A stretch of DNA of 64,000 nucleotides, taken from positions 186,001 through 250,000 of the forward strand of contig NZ_CP127832.1 in NCBI RefSeq assembly GCF_030389495.1, in the 5' to 3' direction. Numbering within the stretch: the first letter of the stretch is position 1; every line of letters begins with the position of its first letter. A program made the position numbers and the translations under genes. The stretch comes from Ligilactobacillus cholophilus. GTDB taxonomy: Bacteria > Bacillota > Bacilli > Lactobacillales > Lactobacillaceae. The notes under the pieces are model-generated. The model was not told where the DNA came from. It saw only the letters and a program-made list of their open reading frames with translations, and did no database searches. Below are positions 21,250 to 51,283 of the stretch, one piece after another.

Positions 21250-21957
21250 ATGAAGACGTTAATTCATAATGATTGGCAAAATGTATTAGAAAGTGAATTT
21301 CAAAAACCATACTATGCTAATTTACATAAATTTTTAAAAAATGAATATCAAAATTATTTAATACATCCTGATATGTATCATATTTTTCAAGCATTTGAAT
21401 GGACGCCTTTTTCAAAGGTAAAAGTCGTTATTTTAGGACAAGATCCATACCATGAACCTCATCAAGCTCATGGATTAAGTTTTTCAGTTCAACCAGGTGT
21501 TCCTGTTCCACCATCATTAAAAAATATTTATAAAGAATTATATAATGATTTAGGAATCAAACCAGTTAACCATGGATACTTAAAAAAATGGGCACAACAG
21601 GGAGTATTATTACTTAATTCGGTCTTAACTGTACGCAATGGACAAGCATTTTCTCATAGGGGAAAAGGATGGGAAAGATTAACAGATGTTGCCATTCAAA
21701 AATTATCAGAACGACCTAAACCGGTAGTTTTTATTTTATGGGGAAAAGCGGCTCAGGCTAAAGAAAAGTATATTGATACAACAAAAAATGTTGTGATAAA
21801 ATCAGCACATCCAAGTCCATTATCAGCAAACCGAGGTTTCTTTGGATCTAAACCTTTTTCTAAAGCAAATGCAGCTTTAGAGGCAATGGGGGAAAAGCCA
21901 ATTGATTGGCAGTTGCCAGAACATGTGGCATTGGATGAGAAGGAGGATAAATCATGA
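21250..21957 (+). CDS. ung: Uracil-DNA glycosylase
   Basis: This removes uracil from DNA to start base excision repair. The 235-residue family 1 enzyme has the water-activating motif GQDPYH and the DNA-binding loop [11 protein letters not shown]. The ATG at 21250 is preferred over the in-frame GTG at 21241, because GAGGTGG overlaps the latter and is 5-6 nt from the former. Its stop overlaps the pta start by 4 nt (ATGA), so it is translationally coupled to pta and tsaE, an arrangement common in lactobacilli. Confidence 0.96.
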
Positions 21958-28086: not shown

Positions 28087-29139
28087 ATGAAAAAAATAAT
28101 CTTAACTTTTTTGACGTCAGTATCTATTTTATGCGGACTAAAAAGTTTAGCGTTTGGAGATGATGTTTCTTCGATGACATCTAGCTCAAGCCAACAATCG
28201 CAAACTGTGGAAATAAGTAGTGAAGAAAATGTTGATGATTACTTTTTAAATCATGGGCATCATACTCACCCAGAAGTTCAAACTGAAACATATACTGAAA
28301 CAATCAATTACTATTTAGTTGGAACAAATAAAAAAATTGCTCCATCAACTGTTAAAGAAATCACTTTTAAAAGAGAAGGATATCGACAAGTTCCTTCTCA
28401 AGAAATAGTTTGGTTAGAATGGGATCATGATTCAGAAAGTTTTGAATCAATTGTTTCGCCAACTATTAAAGGTTATACTACTAATACTTATTGCACTCCT
28501 CAAATTACAATTGTTCCAGGACAAGGTAGTCAACGTAATTATGAATATAATATTTATTATACGCCTGAAAGTAACGGTGAAATTAATGGTTCTTCAGGGT
28601 CAATCCAAAGTTCTAGTTCATCAAAAATGTCTAGTTCAAGTTTAATAAAAAATAATGATAATAAATTAACGGCTAAAAAAAATGTGCAAAAAGAAAAAAA
28701 GATTTCATCATATTCTGAAAAGAATCAGTTATCGGGTGAAATGAATAGTAGAAAATTGCAAACTAATAAGGCAAAAAATAAGAGAATTCAATCTGTTCAA
28801 AATAGTTCTGAAAAGCAGAAATCAAATATTAAACAATCTGCAAAAAATAATTCTTATAACTCTAATTTTGTGAATTCTAAAAGTAAAAATAATATTAAAA
28901 TTCAAAATAGATCTGTTAATACAAATAGTAAATCACAACAATCAAGTAGTTCAATTGCTTCCAATAATAAACATGTGATGAAAAATAGCTTAAAAAATTT
29001 ACGTCAAAAAAATAGTAAAATAGAAAATAAATTTAATTTAATTACAGACATAGAAAAGAAACCAATTTTAATGATTAGTGGGCTAGTTGCTACTATAGCA
29101 ATTGTTTTCGAATTATTTGATCAACGTAAAAGTAAATAA
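28087..29139 (+). CDS. Secreted/membrane-anchored Ser-Asn-Lys-rich protein with one Mub-B2-like domain
   Basis: The protein has 350 residues. It begins with a signal peptide (residues 1-25) and a Ser-rich spacer. Residues about 65-155 resemble one Mub-B2/MucBP repeat of lactobacillus adhesins, with TETINYYLVGTNK, SPTIKGYTTN and a closing YEYNIYYTP strand. A long Ser/Asn/Lys/Gln low-complexity stalk follows (about 160-325). A hydrophobic C-terminal helix is followed by DQRKSK. No LPxTG motif precedes that helix, so sortase anchoring is not evident and it may be held by the membrane helix. It interrupts the usual cdaR-glmM linkage and probably has its own promoter. Confidence 0.75.
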   Translation: MKKIILTFLTSVSILCGLKSLAFGDDVSSMTSSSSQQSQTVEISSEENVDDYFLNHGHHTHPEVQTETYTETINYYLVGTNKKIAPSTVKEITFKREGYRQVPSQEIVWLEWDHDSESFESIVSPTIKGYTTNTYCTPQITIVPGQGSQRNYEYNIYYTPESNGEINGSSGSIQSSSSSKMSSSSLIKNNDNKLTAKKNVQKEKKISSYSEKNQLSGEMNSRKLQTNKAKNKRIQSVQNSSEKQKSNIKQSAKNNSYNSNFVNSKSKNNIKIQNRSVNTNSKSQQSSSSIASNNKHVMKNSLKNLRQKNSKIENKFNLITDIEKKPILMISGLVATIAIVFELFDQRKSK

Positions 29140-30833: not shown

Positions 30834-32651
30834 ATGTGTGGAATTGTCGGAGAAGTTGGAAATGATAATGCAGTTGAATTATTAATTCATGGATTAAAAA
30901 AATTAGAATATCGTGGATATGATTCAGCAGGAATTTATGTAAATGATGAAAAAGGCAATGATTACCTAATTAAAACTAAGGGAAGAATTGCGGAATTAGA
31001 AAAGAAAATTACAGATGATGTACATGGAAAGATTGGAATTGCACATACTAGATGGGCAACTCATGGAATTCCAAGTGCTGCAAATGCACACCCACATGTA
31101 TCAGAAGATGGACGTTTTTACATGGTACATAATGGTGTAATTACAAACTTCAAAGAATTAAAAAATGAATATTTAAGTGATGTACATTTTGAAAGTGAAA
31201 CAGATTCTGAAGTTGTAGTTCAATTAGTAGGCAAGTTTGCAAGTGAAGGATTATCTGCTTTAGAAGCATTTAAAAAAGCAATTAGTTTATTAGGAGAAGG
31301 GGCATCATATGCACTCTTAATGATTGATCGTGAAAATCCAGAGACATTGTATGTTGCTAAAAAGAAATCACCATTATTAATCGGGGTATGTGATGGATTT
31401 AATGTTGTTTGTTCAGATGCAATGGCAATGTTGAATGTAACTCATGATTTTATTGAATTACACGATGGTGAAATTGTAGAGTTAACAGAAAATCAAATTA
31501 AAATCCAAGATAAAGACGGTAATCCAGTAGAACGTAAACCATTTCATGTTAGTCAAGATGCCAGTGCTTCAGAAAAAGGCGCATATGAACATTTTATGTT
31601 AAAAGAAATTGACGAACAACCTGCAGTAATGCGTAAATTAGTTCAAGAATATGTAAATGAAAATGGAAAAGTTGAAATTGATGAAAAATTAATTAAGACA
31701 ATTGAAGAATCTGATCGTATTTATGTTGTTGCAGCTGGTACAAGTTATCATGCAGGTTTAGTTGGACATGAATTAATTGAAAAATTTGCAGGAATACCAA
31801 CTGAAGTACATGTTGCTTCTGAATTTGCTTATAATCGACCACTATTATCGAAGAAACCATTCTTTATTTTCTTAACACAAAGTGGAGAAACTGCTGATAG
31901 TCGTCAAGTATTAAATCAGGTAAATGAATTAGGTTATCCAAGTTTAACAATTACAAATGTTCCAAATTCAACATTGTCACGTGAAGCAACATTTACTTTA
32001 TTATTGTATGCAGGTCCTGAAATTGCTGTTGCATCAACTAAGGCATATACAGCTCAAATTGCGGTTGAAGCATTATTAGCAAAAGCAATCGGTGACGATT
32101 TAGGTTTTGAAGATTCAAAAGCATTTGATATTCGTCAAGAGTTATCTACTGTAGCAAATGGAATGCAAACATTAGTTGATGAAAAAGAAAAAATTGAAGC
32201 TTTGGCACAAAAATATCTTGCTAAAGCACATAATGCATTTTATATTGGACGTGCAATTGATTATGATACAGCAATTGAAGCTGCTTTGAAATTAAAAGAA
32301 GTATCATATATACAAACTGAAGGATTTGCAGCTGGTGAATTAAAACACGGTACGATTGCTTTGATTGAAGAGGGAACACCAGTTATCTCAATTATAACTG
32401 ATCAAACAATTGCTGCTCATACACGTAGCAATGAAGAAGAAGTTGTTGCAAGAGGTGCTAATTTAATTTCAATTGTATCTGAAAAATTAGCTACAAAGAA
32501 AGATCAAATTGTTTTACCAACGGTACATCCGTTATTGACATCTTTAGTTGCAATAATACCTGCTCAATTACTTGCATATTATGCGAGTGAGCAAAGAGGA
32601 TATGATGTTGATAAGCCACGTAACTTGGCTAAAAGTGTAACAGTAGAATAG
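30834..32651 (+). CDS. glmS: Glutamine-fructose-6-phosphate aminotransferase (isomerizing)
   Basis: GlmS makes GlcN-6-P from fructose-6-P and glutamine, the entry step to wall amino sugars. The 605-residue protein has the N-terminal nucleophile Cys2 (MCGIVG), the glutaminase loop RWATHG, two SIS sugar-binding domains (SGETADS; STKAYTAQ) and the C-terminal DKPRNLAKSVTVE. Its Shine-Dalgarno (AGAAAGAAG) is weak. The promoter is flanked by NagR-like sites, and GlmR/YvcK encoded at 5.8 kb is a candidate activator of the enzyme. Confidence 0.98.
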   Translation: MCGIVGEVGNDNAVELLIHGLKKLEYRGYDSAGIYVNDEKGNDYLIKTKGRIAELEKKITDDVHGKIGIAHTRWATHGIPSAANAHPHVSEDGRFYMVHNGVITNFKELKNEYLSDVHFESETDSEVVVQLVGKFASEGLSALEAFKKAISLLGEGASYALLMIDRENPETLYVAKKKSPLLIGVCDGFNVVCSDAMAMLNVTHDFIELHDGEIVELTENQIKIQDKDGNPVERKPFHVSQDASASEKGAYEHFMLKEIDEQPAVMRKLVQEYVNENGKVEIDEKLIKTIEESDRIYVVAAGTSYHAGLVGHELIEKFAGIPTEVHVASEFAYNRPLLSKKPFFIFLTQSGETADSRQVLNQVNELGYPSLTITNVPNSTLSREATFTLLLYAGPEIAVASTKAYTAQIAVEALLAKAIGDDLGFEDSKAFDIRQELSTVANGMQTLVDEKEKIEALAQKYLAKAHNAFYIGRAIDYDTAIEAALKLKEVSYIQTEGFAAGELKHGTIALIEEGTPVISIITDQTIAAHTRSNEEEVVARGANLISIVSEKLATKKDQIVLPTVHPLLTSLVAIIPAQLLAYYASEQRGYDVDKPRNLAKSVTVE

Positions 32652-33008: not shown

Positions 33009-33037
33009 TTGACAGCGTTTACATTTGAATATATAGT
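33009..33037 (+). promoter_or_regulatory. Strong promoter with overlapping cre (CcpA) site
   Basis: A consensus -35 TTGACA (33009-33014), 17-nt spacer and -10 TATAGT (33032-33037). Bases 33010-33023, TGACAGCGTTTACA, match the cre consensus TGWAANCGNTNWCA at 13 of 14 positions and cover the -35 box. CcpA binding there would block RNA polymerase. Confidence 0.85.
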
Positions 33038-33043
33038 AAAGAT

Positions 33044-33134
33044 GTAAGGTATTTAATATTTACCTTCTAATCAATTCTCTTTCTCTCTTATGCCGAGGTT
33101 ATGACTTATTAGTCATAACCTCTGTTTTATTATT
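33044..33134 (+). ncRNA. Candidate CcpA-controlled small RNA
   Basis: The predicted transcript begins about 33044 and ends in the T-run after a 12-bp hairpin (33095-33106 with 33111-33122, loop TATT). That gives roughly 85-90 nt. A short 5' hairpin (AAGGTA...TACCTT, about 33046-33066) is followed by an unpaired CU-rich segment (33064-33090, including TTCTCTTTCTCTCTT) that could pair with purine-rich ribosome binding sites. No credible ORF lies in it. The next gene has its own TTGACA/TAAAAT promoter downstream of the terminator. The RNA nature is inferred from promoter and terminator placement; it matches no family I know. Confidence 0.6.
33095..33134 (+). terminator. Terminator of the candidate small RNA
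   Basis: A perfect 12-bp stem with tetraloop TATT, followed by TGTTTTATTATTTT. It lies between two promoters, with no protein gene ending before it on this strand. Confidence 0.9.
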
Positions 33135-33163
33135 TTGACATCTAACTTAAAGCTCGTTAAAAT
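33135..33163 (+). promoter_or_regulatory. Promoter of the 33196 gene
   Basis: A consensus -35 TTGACA (33135-33140) and -10 TAAAAT (33158-33163) at 17-nt spacing, 32 nt before the start codon. Confidence 0.82.
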
Positions 33164-33195: not shown

Positions 33196-33504
33196 ATGAA
33201 AAGTCATGAAGTGCTAACACTTATTGAAGAAATTACTAGAAATGATGGTTCGCGTTATTTTGAAATATCTAATATAGTTCAAAATGGTCGTGCAGAATTA
33301 GCTGCTAATCGCGGATTTATTAAACAAGTACGAATTATACAACTAAATATTCCAAGATCTAAAAATGTAATAAAATATGAAAAATATATAAATCAAAATT
33401 TTGAAATGCCAAGTGAAGATTTTGATCATTTTGAAGAGTGGAAACGAACTGATGAAATGGAAAAAGTTGTAGAAAATATTTTACATGAAAATCATGTTGC
33501 TTAA
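33196..33504 (+). CDS. Hypothetical 102-residue protein
   Basis: A soluble, acidic small protein with no signal peptide or membrane helix and no family I recognise. A basic patch (GRAELAANRGFIKQVR) precedes an acidic C-terminal half (EDFDHFEEWKRTDEMEKVVENILHE). GTGAGGGA lies 8 nt before the ATG and a consensus promoter lies upstream, so expression is likely. It is a single gene between the candidate small RNA and fba. No clear terminator separates it from fba, but fba has its own extended -10 promoter. Confidence 0.65.
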   Translation: MKSHEVLTLIEEITRNDGSRYFEISNIVQNGRAELAANRGFIKQVRIIQLNIPRSKNVIKYEKYINQNFEMPSEDFDHFEEWKRTDEMEKVVENILHENHVA

Positions 33505-43575: not shown

Positions 43576-43604
43576 TTGCAAAAAATAAAGAAATCGTTTA
43601 CAAT
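43576..43604 (+). promoter_or_regulatory. Sugar-carrier promoter with cre site
   Basis: -35 TTGCAA (43576-43581), 17-nt spacer, -10 TACAAT (43599-43604). AGAAATCGTTTACA at 43589-43602 matches the cre consensus at 13 of 14 positions and overlaps the -10, a repressing geometry for CcpA. Confidence 0.78.
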
Positions 43605-43644
43605 ACATAATTGTTATGAATAAAGAGAAGAAAGAGGTATGAAT

Positions 43645-44514
43645 ATGTTTATTGCACTTATTCCTGCATTAGCATGGGGAAGTATTGGATTAATTAGTGG
43701 AAAATTAGGTGGAACAGCAAATCAACAAACTTTAGGAATGACGTGGGGAGCATTGCTTTTCGCGATTGTAATGACTTTATCAAATTGGAATCATTTTATT
43801 TCTATTAGTTCCTGGAAGTTATGGTTAGTTGGATTAATTTCAGGATTATTTTGGAGTTTAGGGCAAAATCAACAATTTCATGCGATGAAATCAGTAGGAA
43901 TTTCTAAAACCGTTCCAATTTCTACTGGAGCACAGTTAGTTACAAATGCTTTAGCAGGTGTAATATTGTTTCATGAGTGGAAAACAACAAGACAGTTATC
44001 AATTGGATCAGTAGCAATTATTATATTAGTAATTGGTGCAACGTTAACAGCGTTGAGAGATAAAAAGAATAAAGAAGTAAACAGTGAACGTATTCACGAA
44101 GATTGGCGAGCAGGCTCAAGAGCTTTAATTTTATCTACATTAGGATATTTAGGATATACAGTAGTTGTTACAGCAACTGGAGTAGATACGAAAGCAATGG
44201 TTCTGCCACAAGCTTTAGGAATGGTAATTGGTGCTTCAATGTTTGCTTTAGGTAAAAAAGCATTTGAAAAAGAAACTTATAAAAATATAATCACTGGGTT
44301 AGTATGGGGAACCGGTAATTTCTTTATGTTCGAAGCAACTACGTTAGTAGGATTAGCAGTTAGTTTTTCATTTTCACAAATGGGAATAGTTATTTCAACT
44401 TTTGGTTCAATTCTATTTTTAGGTGAAAAGAAAACTAAAAAAGAATGGGTATATGTAATTTTAGGTTCTTTAATGGTTATTGTTGGTGGATTTTTACTTG
44501 GATTATTAAAATAA
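43645..44514 (+). CDS. GlcU/RbsU-family sugar uptake permease
   Basis: This 289-residue drug/metabolite-superfamily carrier has about ten hydrophobic helices, starting with LIPALAWGSIGLISGKLGG and including LGYLGYTVVV and VWGTGNFFMFEA. In Firmicutes this family comprises GlcU (proton-coupled glucose uptake) and RbsU (ribose). Substrate cannot be told from sequence; rbsK at 52.2 kb makes ribose possible. ATG 43645 is preferred to 43639 because AGAAAGAGG ends 7 nt before it. A cre site on its promoter implies repression by preferred sugars. Confidence 0.85.
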   Translation: MFIALIPALAWGSIGLISGKLGGTANQQTLGMTWGALLFAIVMTLSNWNHFISISSWKLWLVGLISGLFWSLGQNQQFHAMKSVGISKTVPISTGAQLVTNALAGVILFHEWKTTRQLSIGSVAIIILVIGATLTALRDKKNKEVNSERIHEDWRAGSRALILSTLGYLGYTVVVTATGVDTKAMVLPQALGMVIGASMFALGKKAFEKETYKNIITGLVWGTGNFFMFEATTLVGLAVSFSFSQMGIVISTFGSILFLGEKKTKKEWVYVILGSLMVIVGGFLLGLLK

Positions 44515-50278: not shown

Positions 50279-51283
50279 ATGGAAAAACAATCAATTACAA
50301 TTTATGATGTTGCTAAAAAAGCAGGCGTATCAATGGCAACTGTTTCACGTGTAGTAAATGGTAATCCAAATGTTAAGCCTGACACACGTAAGAAAGTTAT
50401 GGAAGTTATTGATGAGTTGGATTATCGTCCAAATGCAGTTGCTCGTGGATTAGCAAGTAAGAAAACCACAACAGTGGGTGTTATTATTCCAGATGTAACA
50501 AATGTATATTTTGCATCTCTTGCACGTGGAATTGATGATGTTGCTACAATGTATAAATATAATATTATTTTAGCTAATTCTGATGGTGATAAAAATAAAG
50601 AAATTCAAGTATTTAATACCTTATTAGCAAAACAAGTTGATGGGATAATTTATATGGGTACGCATTTAACAGATGTGCTTCGAGATCAAATTAAACGCTC
50701 TAAAACGCCGGTAGTTTTAGCCGGATCAGTGGATCATAAAGATGAAATTGTAAGTGTTCATGTAAATTACATTAAAGCGGTTAAAGAAGCAATAAATACG
50801 CTTATAGCACATGGAAATAAAAAAATTGCATTTATTTCAGGACCTTTAGAGTATCCAATTAATAGTGAATATCGACTAAAAGGATATAAGGAAGCTTTAA
50901 AAGAAAATGGAATTGATTATAATTCTGATTTAATTTTTGAGACAAATGAAACATATCGTGTAGGAGAAACTTTGTGGCCTGCTTTGTCATCAGTAAATGC
51001 AGATGCTGCTTTTATTGCAGATGATGAATTAGCAGCTGGCGTGTTAAATGGCGCAAAAGATGCAGGAATTAAAGTACCAGAAGATTTTGAAATAATAACT
51101 GGAAATGATTCTAAATTGACTGAGATTGTACGTCCACAATTATCATCAATTACACAACCTTTATATGATATTGGGGCCGTTGCAATGCGTTGCTTAACGA
51201 AAATGATGAATAAAGAAGATAGCGAATTGCAACCTACTGTTGAATTACAATATGGTTTTATTAAGAGAGGTTCAACTCGATAA
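50279..51283 (+). CDS. ccpA: Catabolite control protein A
   Basis: CcpA is the LacI/GalR-family regulator that, with HPr-Ser-P, binds cre sites to repress or activate carbon genes. The 334-residue protein has an N-terminal helix-turn-helix TIYDVAKKAGVSMATVSRVVNG and hinge YRPNAVARGLASKKT, then a periplasmic-binding-like core. AAGGAGAAT lies just before the ATG. Its position opposite pepQ is diagnostic. Cre-type sites elsewhere in the window (33.0 and 43.6 kb) are its likely targets. Confidence 0.96.
   Translation: MEKQSITIYDVAKKAGVSMATVSRVVNGNPNVKPDTRKKVMEVIDELDYRPNAVARGLASKKTTTVGVIIPDVTNVYFASLARGIDDVATMYKYNIILANSDGDKNKEIQVFNTLLAKQVDGIIYMGTHLTDVLRDQIKRSKTPVVLAGSVDHKDEIVSVHVNYIKAVKEAINTLIAHGNKKIAFISGPLEYPINSEYRLKGYKEALKENGIDYNSDLIFETNETYRVGETLWPALSSVNADAAFIADDELAAGVLNGAKDAGIKVPEDFEIITGNDSKLTEIVRPQLSSITQPLYDIGAVAMRCLTKMMNKEDSELQPTVELQYGFIKRGSTR

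Follow-up and report, generated by a model that had tools for sequence, protein, structure and literature searches.

The closest described counterpart of the RNA analysed here is RsaI of Staphylococcus aureus, a small RNA with a CU-rich unpaired region that is included in Rfam as RsaOG. According to a published review, this RNA is repressed by CcpA and released in the absence of glucose, blocks the translation of the glucose uptake gene glcU_2 at the Shine-Dalgarno sequence and has a length of 111 nt (PMC9266662). The regulatory RNAs of lactobacilli have been little studied, and the RNA described in this work has matches in about half of the genomes sampled from this family of food and probiotic bacteria. 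In Lactobacillus casei BL23, 307 putative sRNAs were reported, 86 of which intergenic; none of the sRNA names given in the consulted part of that paper, its supplements aside, could be matched to our locus (PMC8220740). A search of the open-access literature retrieved no paper describing the RNA by title or abstract, and an RNA-seq table may list it without a name.

The RNA gene is located at positions 33009-33134 of the window (that is, the whole stretch of 64,000 nucleotides that was analysed, belonging to the 1.59-Mb genome of Ligilactobacillus cholophilus), between glmS (30834-32651), accompanied by a small reverse ORF, and a gene coding for a protein of 102 amino acids (33196-33504), which is followed by the gene of fructose-bisphosphate aldolase (33621). 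A serine-rich protein with a Muc_B2-like domain is encoded at 28087-29139. The layout of promoter, cre box and terminator is confirmed as it was first described. Indeed, the promoter (33009-33037, forward strand) is composed of the -35 box TTGACA (33009-33014), a spacer of 17 nt and the -10 box TATAGT (33032-33037), with 11 of 12 consensus positions, and 9 to 11 of 12 are retained in all the 112 related loci. The -35 box is covered by a predicted CcpA site (33010-33023, same strand), whose sequence TGACAGCGTTTACA agrees with the cre consensus used for scoring, TGWAANCGNTNWCA, at 13 of 14 positions and at 10 of the 11 specified ones. The predicted transcript (33044-33130, forward strand, about 86 nt), whose 5' end was placed from the promoter and whose 3' end from the terminator, would comprise a 5' hairpin, AAGGTA...TACCTT (33046-33066), a CU-rich pairing segment of 28 nt (33067-33094) and, about 50 nt after the start, an intrinsic terminator (33095-33122) with 12 perfect pairs, a loop of 4 and a T-rich tail; one terminator of such quality was found in the stretch against 0.3 expected. 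The fold of 33043-33128 has a predicted energy of -24 kcal/mol (z = -7.1) and leaves the CU-rich run unpaired. No ORF of at least 40 amino acids overlaps 33009-33134, and across the 112 related loci the longest closed ORF has a median of 5 codons, reaching at least 15 codons in 11 of them; coding capacity is not retained. The 102-aa gene has a separate promoter, TTGACA-17-TAAAAT (33135-33163, forward strand, 11/12), outside the RNA, and a TATAAT-like box is present 3' of the terminator in 77 of the 112 loci versus 35% in shuffles. Hence, the consensus promoter, the cre over its -35, the perfect terminator, the lack of a credible ORF, the independent promoter of the next gene and the unpaired CU-rich middle, all claimed in the first-pass annotation, were recovered. 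The RNA gene possesses its own promoter and intrinsic terminator, apart from its neighbours, as is the case for trans-acting sRNAs. Taken together, the promoter-like sites of this AT-rich stretch are as frequent as expected by chance (8 found versus 9.4 expected), so that the single sequence alone is not decisive, and conservation was therefore taken as the test.

The comparative data settled the matter. A DNA search recovered the element in 22 of 24 further genomes of the genus, and 16 genomes from other families gave no match. A model of the hairpin and the core matched, with an E of 1e-3 or better, 189 of 397 Lactobacillaceae genomes, once in each, a distribution indicating that the RNA is not a chance pattern. 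These genomes represent 17 of the 40 genera counted, 14 of them firmly and the other three through a single weak match apiece (G251, G420 and G685); the core is absent from the G251 match (E 9.9e-4) on reading. Among 80 named loci gathered via the 102-aa gene, the core, scored as at most five mismatches in 24 nt, is present in 75, which belong to Ligilactobacillus, Liquorilactobacillus, Lentilactobacillus, Limosilactobacillus, Paucilactobacillus, Furfurilactobacillus, Latilactobacillus, Dellaglioa, Pediococcus and some unclassified Lactobacillaceae. The other five include two loci cut by contig ends (one of which, L096, retains part of the core) and three true absences, in two Weissella and in Lentilactobacillus laojiaonis. 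Loss of the promoter, the CU-rich stretch and the terminator in related species had been set in advance as the outcome that would count against the RNA; each of these elements is, however, retained in many genera. In an order-wide sample of 395 genomes, strong matches to the model were restricted to the family, the others scoring at most 27.5 bits. The matches outside the family were taken as chance: the nine stretches inspected by eye, from eight genomes, contain no complete promoter-hairpin-core-terminator unit, and four further genomes carry such matches. In two genomes from a different family of the order (L163 and L164), a hairpin followed by a stretch resembling ATCAATTCT reaches 27.5 bits; neither a terminator nor a cre was seen there, and the stretch may be due to chance or be a very distant relative.

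The 102-aa protein is nearly universal in the family (393 of 397 genomes, 39 of 40 genera) and, having no match in Pfam and NCBIfam, it has no function assigned by domain match. The RNA lies upstream of its gene in 150 of 152 loci (a count that includes duplicates between collections), at 87-531 nt from the matched stretch; the two exceptions are L015, where the gene is divergent, and L126, at a contig end. The presence of the gene in almost all genomes implies that the absence of the RNA does not mean absence of the locus, and in the ten RNA-less genomes that were read no core was seen upstream of it.

As regards the RNA itself, 18 nt (AUCAAUUCUCUUUCUCUC / ATCAATTCTCTTTCTCTC, 33070-33087) are identical in all of 50 aligned sequences picked for diversity from the set of 75 core-bearing named loci, and the TTATGC just after them is retained with exceptions mainly in Lentilactobacillus. 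The 19-nt core has a mean unpaired probability of 0.90 over the 112 distinct loci, which were selected by the exact core and are for this reason uninformative on the conservation of the core itself. A conserved single-stranded seed of this kind is a character of trans-acting base-pairing sRNAs. The terminator stem has at least 9 pairs in 110 of the 112 loci versus 5.7% of shuffles, with 70 different sequences of the arms; thus, its structure is kept while its sequence varies freely. The 5' hairpin, 96% of whose cells are paired in 46 distinct sequences, shows no double changes, is kept mostly by sequence and is built differently in some lineages. Another hairpin, with 87% identity to the terminator of the RNA over 37 nt, was observed after a different gene (L003 1501-1536; G000:C1:525189-525224).

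The cre box is conserved as well. A match is present in 112 of 112 loci, with all 11 specified positions in 93, 10 in 18 and 9 in one, a score that shuffles of the same promoter stretch reach 0.1% of the time on average. It covers the -35 box in 79 loci, the -10 box in 32 (e.g., in Limosilactobacillus) and neither in one; the shifting of the site within the promoter, together with its retention, is an argument for selection acting on CcpA repression. A ccpA gene was matched in all 36 genomes checked, whether or not they carry the RNA, and was above the family cut-off in 31; in the window, ccpA (50279-51280) is separated from the RNA gene by 17 kb and from glcU by 7 kb. The RNA gene is probably switched off when the preferred sugar is plentiful.

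A further question concerns the mRNAs with which the CU-rich segment might pair. Among the 60 ribosome-binding sites of the window, the best predicted duplexes were those of pta (-26.1 kcal/mol), of a gene for a 78-aa membrane protein (-18.5) and, third, of glcU (-18.0). Two candidates, pta and glcU, were taken into the relatives, the latter chosen partly because RsaI targets glcU_2. The glcU gene (43645-44514, forward strand) codes for a glucose uptake protein (PF06800, E 9.6e-98), and the proposed pairing site (43622-43643, same strand) covers its Shine-Dalgarno sequence, in agreement with the purine-rich type of target that had been predicted from the CU-rich run. The lookup included 26 genomes with a firm RNA match and 37 without (32 of the 37 having the PF06800 family). 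The median duplex energy of glcU, L339 and L369 having no usable start, was -15.1 with the RNA (n = 28) versus -10.3 without it (n = 29; p 9e-5), whereas that of the RbsU-type paralogs was -9.8 with the RNA (n = 15; p 7e-4 against glcU) and -10.1 without it (n = 20). A glcU site at -15 kcal/mol or better is found in 15 of 26 RNA genomes versus 0 of 29 RNA-less ones, and by genus in 9 of 14 versus 0 of 15 (p 2e-4); this cut was chosen after the energies had been seen, and cuts of -16, -18 and -20 separate the groups too. Since the genomes are related, these tests are not fully independent, an effect that counting by genus lessens. Exact complementary runs of at least 8 occur in 15 of 27 glcU leaders with the RNA versus 3 of 28 without it, in 1 of 15 and 2 of 20 RbsU-type paralogs, respectively, and in 6 of 108 leaders of the 102-aa gene; the count of runs omits L314, L324 and L368, whose start lies inside the gene, and adds G009 by hand, and the genus count omits the same three. 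The glcU copy of G009 (L339) is frame-broken in a draft genome, likely through an assembly error, and has a strong leader site (-18.6).

Most of the glcU sites precede the start codon and cover the Shine-Dalgarno sequence, and in some species nearly the whole segment is predicted to pair (positions 1-28 in G255), which would explain the conservation of the flanks of the CU tract; sites are weak despite the RNA in several genomes (G376, G430, G195, G407, G003 and G010). The reversed core pairs with the glcU leaders nearly as well (median -14.6 versus -15.1, p 0.08; runs of at least 8 in 12 of 27), since the CU tract is near-palindromic, and part of the pairing signal is thus GA-richness. The leaders of the 102-aa gene, with few exact runs, have a median of -13.4 and are at -15 or better in 31% of cases, the glcU energies being lower (p 0.011); the comparisons with the reversed core and with these leaders were also computed without L314, L324 and L368. 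The contrast between genomes is better evidence than the energies against the reversed core. By predicted pairing, glcU is the best-supported conserved target found.

It might be argued that the RNA is indeed a CcpA-controlled base-pairing RNA, whose main conserved targets are other mRNAs, with glcU being minor or coincidental. The invariance of 18 nt does suggest several targets, and lone strong sites exist elsewhere. In the window, the predicted duplex with the pta ribosome-binding site (21926-21953) uses both ends of the segment; in G391, a Limosilactobacillus by its RNA sequence (L227 near 1500), 14 nt at the beginning of an oxidoreductase gene are complementary to the 5' part of the core with one G-U pair. 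As a conserved target, pta (21954) was rejected, its site being seen in this genome only out of 19 with the RNA: the duplexes range from -14.8 to -5.6 kcal/mol in the 18 other RNA genomes and from -14.4 to -6.9 in 14 genomes without it. It could be a species-specific target. A screen for long sites in this genome, with a G-U-tolerant 15-mer, was equally discarded (10 matches, one of which is the RNA gene, versus 9 for the reversed control), and 13-mers in 13 genomes disclosed no recurring gene among the matches listed, to which 20 further stretches that were read are to be added. The glcU sites, on the contrary, are associated with the RNA at the level of genera, which those of pta are not, and we regard this alternative as rather unlikely. 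Much less probable still is that the RNA acts through a bound protein or through the titration of another RNA and not on mRNA leaders; a protein could recognise a long invariant tract that is single-stranded, but the association between the RNA and the glcU leader sites would not be expected. Lastly, despite the almost constant position of the core upstream of the 102-aa gene, the idea of a cis-acting leader or attenuator of that gene can hardly be entertained and was rejected, as it calls for transcription from a shared promoter, whereas the two are divided by a complete terminator and by a promoter of the gene's own, the gene is divergent in L015, and it occurs in far more genomes than the RNA, standing without it in two Weissella.

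On the whole, we consider it probable that this element is a trans-acting sRNA of much of the Lactobacillaceae, repressed by CcpA and pairing with the glcU leader to block translation; the sugar-controlled, trans-acting RNA proposed in the first-pass annotation thus finds support in the sequence comparison. We infer that, in the presence of the preferred sugar, CcpA would sit on the cre box of the promoter and block the RNA gene. When the sugar falls, the RNA would be made, and its unpaired segment would pair with GA-rich leaders at the Shine-Dalgarno sequence, preventing the translation of the target mRNAs, of which the conserved one found, glcU, would serve non-PTS glucose uptake. A cre-like box (43589-43602, forward strand, 10/11 specified positions) overlaps the -10 box of glcU, TACAAT; upstream cre matches of at least 10/11 were found in 8 of 28 glcU genes in RNA genomes and in 11 of 29 in RNA-less ones, versus about 1% of shuffles (1.3% for the RNA set). 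If so, glcU and the RNA that represses it would both be repressed by CcpA. Such an incoherent feed-forward loop might limit or pulse the synthesis of GlcU as sugar runs out. The RNA would then provide a precise prediction linking CcpA to glucose uptake and may tune the sugar uptake of gut and food bacteria; if this is true, RNA control would be part of catabolite repression in lactobacilli.

How does this locus compare with RsaI? At the gathering score, Rfam returned no family for the window element or for 12 related loci, in keeping with the initial statement that it matched no known RNA family, and the 18 weak matches obtained at an E of at most 10 do not include RsaOG. The element differs from RsaI also in its length (about 86 nt versus the 111 nt given in the review) and in belonging to another bacterial family; RsaI has other targets, too, namely fn3K and icaR. 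The likeness concerns the cre-bearing promoter, here and in all the related loci, which suggests CcpA control, and the predicted complementarity to the glcU ribosome-binding site, for which the support is comparative. Being a likeness in wiring with no detectable descent, it does not lead us to class the element as RsaI. It is tempting to go further and to speculate, in a proposal that we hold only tentatively and that could prove either right or wrong, that this is a family-wide RNA of sugar scarcity, with an RsaI-like circuit of independent origin, that is, a convergent RNA feed-forward loop, whose seed was frozen by a wider set of targets. If this idea was correct, then the three-part circuit of RsaI may have arisen twice.
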